NCBI RefSeq assembly: GCF_029961185.1
Contig: NZ_JASBQQ010000008.1
Location: 1 to 64,000, forward strand
Source of the DNA: Albidovulum aestuarii
GTDB lineage: Bacteria; Pseudomonadota; Alphaproteobacteria; Rhodobacterales; Rhodobacteraceae
Length of the DNA: 64,000 nucleotides
Direction of reading: 5' to 3'
Positions 45,049 to 56,343 of this stretch are shown one piece after another (position 1 is the first letter of the stretch; every line of letters begins with the position of its first letter). Position numbers and translations under genes: made by a program. The notes beneath the pieces were generated by a model that saw only the letters and a list, made by a program, of their open reading frames with translations, searched no databases and had not been told where the DNA came from.

Positions 45049-45078
45049 CCTCCGTCCCGACAGGTGTCGGGACGGAGG
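45049..45078 (-). terminator. Stem-loop at the end of the gamma-glutamyl operon
   Basis: Perfect 14-bp stem CCTCCGTCCCGACA / TGTCGGGACGGAGG separated by two bases, 6 bp beyond the iron alcohol dehydrogenase stop. A strong candidate transcript end for the seven-gene operon, although no T-tract is present. Confidence 0.65.
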
Positions 45079-54489: not shown

Positions 54490-54501
54490 GGGGGGGGGAG
54501 T

Positions 54502-54560
54502 CGTAGGGCGGGGTTCTACCCCGCCGCTGGGCGGATGGTGGGGTGGAACCCCACCCTACG
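54502..54560 (+). repeat. REP-like compound palindrome, left copy
   Basis: Outer arms CGTAG (54502-54506) and CTACG (54556-54560) enclose two perfect hairpins: GGCGGGGT-tct-ACCCCGCC (54507-54525) and GGTGGGGT-gga-ACCCCACC (54537-54555). The first hairpin reappears in inverted orientation at 56322-56343, so the Abi cassette lies between inverted copies. Confidence 0.75.
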
Positions 54561-54564
54561 CTCG

Positions 54565-55545
54565 CTATTTCCAGATAGCTTCTTGTTCCCAGTTCATCGG
54601 AAAGCCAGCCGCATTCAAATCAATGATTGGATTTGTAGGAGCGCGTGTTACAAGGTCAACGACCCGTTTGTGCCACTCAGTCGCAGGATGGATATTCCGC
54701 ATCATGATGCACATAATGAGAAGGGCACAGTAGAGACGCGTCTGGCTGTGAGTATTGCCCTGAATATGGTCCAGCTCTGGCAGATCTCCCATGGGCGGAA
54801 ACTTGGGCTGAACTTTTAGACCGCGGTTCCAAAGCCTCGAATGGTGTGCGCATATATTTCGCACGTCATTCAAAGCGTGAACCCAAGTGACCAATTCTTT
54901 TCCGGTAAGTTTTCCATAGTGAGATGCGACAGCATTCGTGTCCGAATGGCGCATACCGTCAACGAAATGGGAAAGCATTCCCCAATCCCACACTTCAGTA
55001 GCAACCCATATAGGGGGTTGGAGGCCGTTGTATTTCTTACGAAAATGGTCTGCAAAGTCCTCTTTCGACTTGTTGAATTTGTCATCTTGACTGTGAAGCC
55101 AGTCCTGATGCCGAGTAAACCTGTTATTTCTACGGCTTCGTTTTGTAGTGAAGTCTCCGTGTAGCTGCGCGGCGCTTCGATGAGCGTGCATGTCACGTGC
55201 CCCAAGGAGGTTGGCGACTTGAGCCCGGAGGCAAATCTCAATCCGCTCCAACGCGTCGCTGACAAGAAGACGTAGCTCTTTGTCATATACGTAGAAGTCG
55301 ATCACCTCCTCGAATTTCGTTCCTGGCACGAACTCGTCGAATGTGTGAAACAGTGGTCTGCCGCGTCCGACGTTTGGCAGAATAAGAAACCGACGGAAGG
55401 GATACCAATAGGCGCTTAGGCGATAGTATCCGACCCTTGCCAGACACTGCTTAGCTTTTGAAACATCGCCAATTGCCATCCCGCGAGCCCGCAGGATTGC
55501 TATCTGCTCGTCCAAAGTCTTGAAGGGTTTTAAGCCGGGAGCCAC
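54565..55545 (-). CDS. Abi_2-family (AbiD/AbiF-type) phage-defence protein
   Basis: A 326-residue protein of the Abi_2 abortive-infection family. The N-terminus has the family pattern LDEQIAILRARGMAIGD and ARVGYYRLSAYWYPFR (about 36-51). The C-terminal part contains R229-NICA-H234, an R-x4-H motif like that of HEPN ribonucleases, followed by SRLWNRGL. The start is GTG 55545; no clear ribosome binding site is visible. The composition is less GC-rich than neighbouring genes, which suggests transfer. A terminator and three stem-loops lie just upstream on the same strand. Predicted RNA-cleaving toxin; unproven. Confidence 0.88.
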   Translation of the reverse strand: MAPGLKPFKTLDEQIAILRARGMAIGDVSKAKQCLARVGYYRLSAYWYPFRRFLILPNVGRGRPLFHTFDEFVPGTKFEEVIDFYVYDKELRLLVSDALERIEICLRAQVANLLGARDMHAHRSAAQLHGDFTTKRSRRNNRFTRHQDWLHSQDDKFNKSKEDFADHFRKKYNGLQPPIWVATEVWDWGMLSHFVDGMRHSDTNAVASHYGKLTGKELVTWVHALNDVRNICAHHSRLWNRGLKVQPKFPPMGDLPELDHIQGNTHSQTRLYCALLIMCIMMRNIHPATEWHKRVVDLVTRAPTNPIIDLNAAGFPMNWEQEAIWK

Positions 55546-55556
55546 AAGTCAACATT

Positions 55557-55605
55557 ACAAAATAAAACCGACCCTTACTACCCTTTCAGGTTGCAGAGGG
55601 GCCGG
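55557..55605 (-). terminator. Intrinsic terminator of the candidate ncRNA
   Basis: Read on the minus strand: CCGGCCC (55605-55599), a loop of about 24 bases, GGGTCGG (55574-55568; one G-U pair), then TTTTATTTT. This is the only hairpin in the window with a proper T-tract, and it separates the structured RNA from the Abi coding region. Confidence 0.7.
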
Positions 55606-55677
55606 CCATGTCGAGACCATACATATCGTTGATTCGTAAAGAATCAATAGCGTTCGCAACGTTAGTTGTTTCGAACG

Positions 55678-55727
55678 TCAGGAGACTGTAGCAACAACGC
55701 TTAAGCGTTGTTGCTACAGTCTCCTGA
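55678..55727. repeat. 50-bp perfect palindrome
   Basis: Perfect inverted repeat with 25-base arms and no spacer, centred on TTAA (55701-55704); each arm begins TCAGGAGACTGTAGC from the outside. It is the longest perfect palindrome I found in the window. It lies between the Abi_2 ncRNA region and the divergent small gene, so its hairpin could belong to either transcript. Confidence 0.9.
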
Positions 55728-55816
55728 GCAATTTGTCAAGTTCATATTGTATTGAAAATGCTGCATATCTTTCGTATCACTACGCATACCTTTGTTTCAT
55801 AACAGAAAGTGCAACA

Positions 55817-56200
55817 TTGTCTGACGACGAACGCAGCTACTACGAGACGCGACTGATCCGCGAGATCGAAGAGATCGACGCAAGGATCATGGAGCTACGC
55901 CGAGAACAAGACGCCCTCAAACGGCAGCTCATGAAGGCTAGGTGGGAGAACAACGCACTAAGGGACGTCACTCGCAAGAACAGCGCCAACCGTGTGATGG
56001 TTGAGCAGCGCATCTTGGATGAATTAGGTGAGGCCAGCAAATCGCTTTCCACATCAGCCTTGTACAAGGTCGCCGTTCTAGCAAACTTCGAACTAAAAGC
56101 GAACACCTTTCGTACGCACCTCCATCGGCTGAAGGAACGTGGGATGATTGAGTCTCCGAGGCGGGGATACTGGAAGCTGTCAGATAGAAAACCCTCTTAG
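55817..56200 (+). CDS. Coiled-coil/winged-helix small protein, unknown
   Basis: A 127-residue product if translated from TTG 55817 (an upstream TTG at 55733 would add 28 residues; no ATG is available near the start). Residues 5-50 are a strongly charged heptad-like coiled coil (ETRLIREIEEIDARIMELRR). Residues 70-127 look like a winged helix (TSALYKVAVLANFELKANTF, then HRLKERGMIESPRRGYWKL). It could be a DNA-binding regulator of the divergent ncRNA/Abi unit. The family is not recognised. It lies inside the REP-bounded segment with the Abi gene. Confidence 0.6.
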   Translation: MSDDERSYYETRLIREIEEIDARIMELRREQDALKRQLMKARWENNALRDVTRKNSANRVMVEQRILDELGEASKSLSTSALYKVAVLANFELKANTFRTHLHRLKERGMIESPRRGYWKLSDRKPS

Positions 56201-56293
56201 AGATACCGAACTTCTGTCGCCCCTACTGCTCCGGCACCAGTAAGCCATCGGATGAGCATTCATTGCGCATAGATGTGGCGGGGCGGTGTGAAA

Positions 56294-56343
56294 GGTGCGC
56301 AATCAATGCGCACCCTACGGTGCGGGGTAGAACCCCGCCCTAC
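56294..56343 (-). repeat. REP-like compound palindrome, right copy (inverted)
   Basis: Hairpin GGTGCGC-aatcaat-GCGCACC (56294-56314), then CTACG, then GCGGGGT-aga-ACCCCGC (56322-56338) with CCTAC. The last part is the reverse complement of the left copy at 54504-54525. It overlaps the ftsK stop codon (56340-56342), so the repeat may have shaped the gene end and may serve as its terminator. Confidence 0.7.

Follow-up and report, generated by a model that had tools for sequence, protein, structure and literature searches.

Results

The window, that is the whole 64,000-nucleotide stretch of DNA analysed here, carries on its minus strand (54565-55545) an intact open reading frame of 326 amino acids, with a GTG start, that encodes a HEPN RNase toxin of the Abi_2 (AbiF/AbiD) family. 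The protein scores 180.2 bits against PF07751 (E = 6.5e-53), well past the curated cut-off of 25.6 bits; PADLOC names it AbiD (E = 5e-62), and phmmer aligns its residues 3-326 with PDB chain 8vz6, an Abi family protein (E = 1.4e-37). An earlier sequence-only reading of this DNA had recognised an Abi_2 gene with R229-x4-H234, and this is borne out: R229, N230 and H234 of the HEPN motif, R229-N-x3-H234, are invariant in 9/9 aligned homologues. Family and catalytic motif together identify the product as a HEPN RNase toxin, and RNase activity is predicted from its sequence. Between the toxin gene and a divergent gene for a putative coiled-coil winged-helix regulator (plus strand, ~55817-56200, TTG start proposed) lie a hairpin RNA of ~54 nt, two short stem-loops and a long inverted repeat.

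These elements belong to a cassette (window 54568-56235) that finds no match in the other 21 of 22 genus genomes; both cassette flanks are on one contig in 10 of those 21. The best relative (G001) matches the window up to 54497 and then again from 56242, and in G004 only ~0.2 kb lies between the flanks. At the same spot (window 54498-56242) G001 has an AIPR gene (L257) and G013 a Hypoth_Ymh gene (L260), these being the two of six retrieved flank-bounded regions whose cargo was read. The cassette is situated between a conserved gene and ftsK (named by eye), and, since the same spot differs in content from genome to genome, the position beside ftsK seems to be one whose cargo changes. Abi_2 itself was found in 4/101 relatives, the own genome included. 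Copies of GGCGGGGTTCTACCCCGCC in opposite orientation flank the cassette (54507-54525 and 56321-56339); with up to two mismatches allowed, the genome has three occurrences of this sequence.

Upstream of homologous Abi_2 genes we found a recurring element, consisting of ACAYGG, an outer stem of 7-9 bp, an asymmetric internal loop (CUC facing a single base), an inner stem whose length varies and a U-rich tract. Its counterpart in the window (minus strand, 55558-55611, with the proposed transcription start at 55611) has an ACAUGG leader, a 9-bp outer stem, a CUC/A internal loop, an inner stem and a U-rich tract, and the window sequence by itself folds into the same hairpin as the consensus of A2, an alignment of 21 hand-chosen upstream RNA sequences with 14 base pairs. 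In A2 these pairs hold in 95.5% of cells, and sliding the partners by one base lowers pairing to 42-46%. Both-sided changes occur at 6 pairs, compared with 3.0 in shuffles (2/500 shuffles as high); shuffling lowers the covariation score from 0.354 to 0.207 (0/500 as high). The 54-nt hairpin has a folding z of -2.4 (minus strand, calculated without the long repeat), and its loop sequence is conserved beyond the needs of a terminator. The T-tract hairpin that the sequence-only reading called a terminator is indeed present (within 55607-55558); these data support the view that it is itself the conserved RNA, rather than the three stem-loops further upstream, which that reading had proposed as the RNA; the covariation was found for the terminator hairpin. 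A strict promoter and terminator scan of 55480-55900 returned neither a promoter-like nor a terminator-like site, a result that also weighs against the two promoters proposed below.

From upstream RNAs only we built a covariance model, R1, and from a related downstream RNA a second model, R2. R1 scores 54 bits on the window copy, itself a member of the training set, and has one match in the whole window, so the hairpin motif is not repeated in tandem. Two hairpin RNA copies beside one Abi_2 gene were seen at L099:2301-2476, L109:2245-2474 and L074:3464-3644, which recalls the repeats of type III antitoxins. Two adjacent Abi_2 genes share one genome (L021/L024, G399:C158), and the R1 hairpin accompanies one of the two.

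The sequence-only reading expected the RNA to accompany orthologous Abi_2 genes. At E <= 0.01, R1 or R2 marks 67/80 named loci (the best 80 of at least 471 Abi_2 relatives), of which 38 are training members (14 in A2, 24 in A4) and 29 belong to neither training set. The expectation of an RNA beside the gene is thus upheld by the models, and that of an upstream position in part: in 24 of the 67 the RNA lies upstream in sense and in 43 downstream and convergent, with none elsewhere in those loci. R1 matches the strand opposite the toxin gene just past the Abi_2 stop, mostly in gamma- and betaproteobacteria, and the downstream copies were absent from its training, yet score up to 61 bits (L089). 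A related downstream RNA, ACACGGCCCCU..GGGGUUUUU, is present in a further 26 of 46 downstream stretches inspected. The 43 convergent loci fall among L051-L110 (for example, L058:3490-3550, minus), and an Rfam 15 scan of 12 convergent loci found no family at the gathering score except a tRNA.

In a tree of 87 Abi_2 proteins (the window, the 80 named loci and 6 plasmid loci), upstream and downstream placements are split by one branch with a support of 100/96, or 99/98 when two interrupted, stop-holding rows are left out. The tree was rooted for drawing only and so does not orient the placement change. The models at E <= 0.01 had no match in 13/80 named loci; an upstream hairpin was recognised by eye in L063, L068, L071, L084 (R1 E = 0.037), L104, L113 and L114-L119, and the label "up" was given by eye in the tree to 12 named loci and to the plasmid locus L030 (R1 E = 0.087). 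L111, with no R1 or R2 match and no hairpin by eye, is unlabelled.

This distribution bears on the possibility that the hairpin is an attenuator only, a 5'-leader terminator that limits transcription of the toxin gene and has no antitoxin role. Such a role would suit the 24 upstream loci, where 3-201 nt separate the end of the model match (which takes in the U tract) from the matched Abi_2 start, as well as the C. difficile RNA RCd22, where strong termination is reported, together with a 17-fold increase in abiF when RCd22 is deleted, in the available text of PMC12373285. However, 43/80 loci (best 80 of at least 471) have the RNA downstream and convergent, with the hairpin and the promoter spacing kept, and a convergent downstream RNA cannot attenuate as a leader; the conservation of the loop, too, exceeds what a terminator needs. 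We therefore consider attenuation as the sole function unlikely. A role in trans fits best, and the placement pattern favours an RNA that would act in trans, like the antitoxins RCd22 and AbiFr.

Beyond the named loci, R1 has 11 matches at E <= 0.001 in 385 class genomes. The best 4 (47-69 bits) lie directly before an Abi_2 gene, and the weaker 7 (25-34 bits) are on contigs without an Abi_2 match. Abi_2 is present in 16 class genomes, of which R1 marks 4 at Abi_2, several others having different upstream hairpins by eye; the set is thus more varied, with R1 capturing one branch of it. The fifth match (33.7 bits, L250), from a genome that has no Abi_2 match, was set aside; the gene ahead of it we take to be aspS (named by eye).

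For this RNA we propose a promoter of its own, P2 (minus strand, 55619-55647), with TTGATT (55647-55642), a 17-bp spacer, ATGTAT (55624-55619) and 7 nt to A55611; its -35 hexamer and spacer overlap the stem-loop at 55629-55647. As P2 is weak by itself in the window and was missed by the strict scan, the case for it rests on its position in relatives. Counted from the A of ACAYGG, TTGAC starts between -39 and -35 in 18/37 upstream RNAs (mean 0.19 and maximum 2 in 1000 base shuffles), and TTG[AC] does so in 28/37 non-redundant upstream RNAs (shuffle mean 1.4, maximum 5). The convergent downstream RNAs have the same promoter spacing, with TTGAC in 14/25 (shuffle mean 0.12) and TTG[AC] in 22/25 (1.06). 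For these counts anchors were set by hand in 42 upstream RNAs, RF03085-like upstream loci were excluded and near-copies were removed (leaving 37 upstream RNAs and, from 26, 25 downstream ones), and the shuffles preserve base composition only. The sequence-only reading had placed the promoter further upstream, at a -10-like TACAAT (55751-55746); the best hexamer 16-18 nt ahead of this site agrees with TTGACA at no more than 3/6 positions (by eye), which speaks against that site.

The divergent gene has homologues in the same place on two Rhizobium plasmids (L026 and L025, 56 and 59% identity; range 56-60%) and a homologue of 45% identity in a Rickettsiales genome (L109). Its profile at E <= 1e-12 finds 5/394 family genomes and 1/385 class genomes, the own genome included. 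The structural model of the protein (pLDDT 88.6) has a helix at residues 4-72 and a winged-helix part at 79-121. PaaX falls just below its cut-off, and AbiEi models score 28 and 20 bits (PADLOC). Foldseek placed the model closest to ZBP1 Z-alpha (E = 8.3e-3), a domain that binds left-handed duplexes; no match was below 1e-3, and we took the fold for a generic winged helix. The alignment of the protein found no relative in viral contigs. The palindrome pattern gave at least 120 matches there, a number regarded as close to chance given the shortness of the pattern.

In Phaeobacter piscinae (L120) and in three further genomes (L122, L124 and L125) the divergent partner of the winged-helix gene is an NYN-domain gene, NYN being a predicted RNase family. 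These NYN and winged-helix pairs (L120:2021-3363, L122, L124 and L125) enclose a repeat with arms of 23-24 bp. They possibly constitute a new toxin-repressor pair.

At 55678-55727 the spacer in the window contains an inverted repeat with perfectly matching 25-bp arms (core TAGCAACAA..TTGTTGCTA), which has no other match in the own genome at E <= 0.001. The arms measure 25 bp in the window, 24 bp in L120 and L122 (which share one repeat), 23 bp in L124 and L125, 22 bp in L109, 19 bp in L025 and 17 bp in L026; L123 is cut by a contig end. In ~653 kb of loci, several of which overlap, perfect repeats with arms of at least 19 bp and a loop of up to 8 occur only at winged-helix loci and once in L034; the repeat of L026, with a 9-nt loop, was found separately. 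The window has one other perfect inverted repeat with arms of at least 14 bp and a loop of up to 8 (45049-45078).

Overlapping the repeat is a second proposed promoter, P1, directed toward Abi_2 (minus strand, 55711-55739), with TTGACA (55739-55734), a 17-bp spacer and TAGCAA (55716-55711) inside the repeat, so placed that transcription would start near the repeat centre. P1 was missed by the strict scan of 55480-55900. On the toxin side TTGAC[ATG] stands 37-40 nt from the repeat centre in 7/7 distinct loci with an intact spacer, NYN loci included, and is followed after 17 bp by a -10-like hexamer within the repeat (TAGCAA in four loci). On the other side of the repeat the best hexamer matches TTGACA at 2 to 4/6 positions, or 5/6 in L124. 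Gene, repeat and -35 hexamer co-occur, and the simplest reading is that the winged-helix protein is a repressor, the repeat its operator and P1 the promoter; binding and repression are predictions from this arrangement.

The repeat was also central to the proposal of the sequence-only reading that a single structured RNA of ~180 nt, with the 25-bp hairpin as a possibly lineage-specific part of an abiF RNA, is the partner of Abi_2, perhaps processed or serving as a guide. The three stem-loops at 55629-55647 (7-bp arms), 55651-55677 (6-bp arms, folding in the window) and 55678-55727 are present as described; they share a strand and precede the gene, and taken as a whole 55550-55751 (minus strand) folds strongly (z = -9.4). 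The arms of the long repeat also stay complementary despite sequence change, as those of a transcribed hairpin would. Without that repeat, however, the two middle stems reach z = -3.4, far less unusual than the whole, and neither is conserved in L025 or L026, which are the closest loci with this arrangement and have no perfect stem of at least 7 bp with a loop of up to 10 besides the long repeat. By eye, the stem-loop at 55651-55677 was not seen in L025, L026 or L120, and L120 retains the TTGATTCTT half of that at 55629-55647 without its pairing arm. The long repeat, for its part, goes with the winged-helix gene, also before NYN genes, and arms of at least 19 bp are absent from the fetched Abi_2 loci that lack this gene, L034 apart. 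In addition, a transcript starting where the -35 hexamer places it, at the repeat centre, would contain only one of the arms. A partner RNA of ~180 nt thus seems quite improbable, and the relatives lend no support to the single long RNA or to the long hairpin as a part of it. Nor did anything in these sequence comparisons point to guiding by the RNA.

The pairing of the arms over 17-25 bp, while their sequence varies between loci, is more than a simple dimer operator needs, and a plain operator leaves it unexplained. Because the arms keep pairing while the sequence changes, the repeat itself might be a sensor. On this suggestion, which we hold to be doubtful, the winged-helix gene and the 43-50-bp repeat form a portable control module before unrelated RNase toxins (HEPN Abi_2, NYN), in which the repeat, either as a DNA cruciform or transcribed into a duplex that the winged helix would read, senses infection, at Abi_2 loci on top of the RNA antitoxin.

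The winged-helix protein could alternatively be a protein antitoxin or co-factor that contacts Abi_2 directly, the RNA being secondary. Its divergent pairing with two unrelated families of RNases or predicted RNases, HEPN Abi_2 and NYN, would agree with this, as would the weak similarity to the AbiEi winged helix. Yet in most Abi_2 loci with the RNA no winged-helix gene was found in the DNA examined: below L126, where some loci have little upstream DNA, the window, L025, L026 and L109 are the only ones in which it was found next to Abi_2, and we regard such a role as very unlikely.

Discussion

The comparisons above suggest that the cassette is probably a three-part system of the AbiF kind, in which a HEPN RNase toxin and an RNA antitoxin are joined by an added repressor and operator; these functions are predicted. 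The RNA-neutralised Abi system put forward by the sequence-only reading is, in that respect, supported by comparison, with the terminator hairpin, and not the upstream stems, as the likely RNA. An RNA of ~54 nt would be made from its own promoter, P2, and fold into the hairpin, which would end transcription ahead of the Abi_2 gene and, as the same molecule, bind the Abi_2 protein in trans as an antitoxin. The winged-helix protein would bind the long inverted repeat and repress both its own gene and P1, which has a consensus -35 hexamer and would point at both RNA and toxin gene. The RNase might be freed, and growth halted, once the repressor is released or the RNA is lost, for example upon phage infection; the cassette may accordingly serve in phage defence. 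The hairpin, its covariation, the promoter position and the convergent placement in part of the Abi_2 tree are all borne out by comparison of relatives, whereas transcription of the RNA, its binding and neutralisation are expected by homology with AbiF-RCd22 and PbAbiF-AbiFr.

The two covariance models point to an RNA gene in its own right that has stayed next to Abi_2 in several phyla, and the single placement change on the Abi_2 tree amounts to a natural experiment on whether it acts in trans. HEPN and NYN toxin candidates would be tied to one control device by the repressor-like module that they share. A literature search, with subscription papers mostly outside its coverage, brought up no paper that we recognised as dealing with the regulator module or the convergent RNA; the repressor-operator module and the RNA variant look new, the overall kind of system being known.

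AbiE is a type IV system in which AbiEi is a winged-helix repressor that acts with inverted repeats. Unlike in AbiE, no AbiEii nucleotidyltransferase partner is present here, the divergent neighbours examined being Abi_2 or NYN. The layout of type III toxin-antitoxin systems, with a terminator-ended RNA beside the toxin, fits the window by sequence and comparison, the strict scan reporting no terminator; in type III systems and in RCd22 the antitoxin motif repeats, whereas the window has a single hairpin copy. Abi_2 genes are also embedded in restriction-modification operons, as the available text of PMC3710099 describes. The convergent loci resemble type I restriction operons with Abi_2 in having hsdS upstream: the upstream neighbour is HsdS in 7/7 convergent loci tested, which were chosen from 41 for HsdS-like ends and give no overall share. 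Unlike in the window, the RNA there lies downstream and convergent, and the open reading frames listed for the window include none that is restriction-like by eye.

Like the abiF RNA (RF03085), the window RNA is a hairpin RNA adjoining an Abi_2 gene, and it lies outside RF03085 by that model's own cut-off, as RF03085 has no match on the window at gathering or at E <= 10. Rfam at these two thresholds gave mostly microRNA-type matches on inverted repeats in the window region, none at gathering. RF03085 has no match in the own genome either, a result uninformative alone, as controls also matched nowhere. The model scores above its cut-off in 2/40 other Abi_2-related loci (2/20, L006 and L013, then 0/20). 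In these two the match falls at the same place before Abi_2 and, as in the window, the hairpin has a closed outer stem and an internal loop; the loop regions differ, CUCUGCA..GUA in the window versus AAGCCUCUCAACGAUGCUCAAAUC.

The closest parallels are two AbiF systems with an RNA antitoxin. According to the available text of PMC12373285 (PLoS Genet 2025), AbiF-RCd22 of the C. difficile prophage phi027 and phage phiC2 has, as here, an Abi_2 toxin with a HEPN motif and an RNA immediately upstream, with its own promoter and a terminator before the gene. RCd22 exerts repression on abiF in cis, and it neutralises AbiFCd both in cis and in trans, in trans by binding the protein (PMC12373285). It differs in combining two RF03085 motifs with a separate terminator, whereas the single hairpin of the window is itself terminator-like (RCd22 as described in the available text of PMC12373285); the window RNA has no RF03085 match, and the cassette adds a divergent regulator with an inverted repeat. 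R1 and R2 had no match on the phiC2 piece examined (L038). In PbAbiF-AbiFr (PDB 8VZ6) the protein is homologous and binds an RNA antitoxin with an inhibitory bulge, and in the available text on this system, unlike in our reading of the window, no paired repressor is described (PMC12737573, PMC12373285). AbiFr is the RNA antitoxin of PbAbiF, and its single-stranded bulge blocks the RNase (available text of the review PMC12737573). Cas13 has been proposed to descend from AbiF, and the guide RNA from the RNA antitoxin of AbiF, in the available portions of both sources (PMC12737573, PMC12373285). By analogy with RCd22 and AbiFr, we infer that the hairpin RNA of the window may work in the same way.
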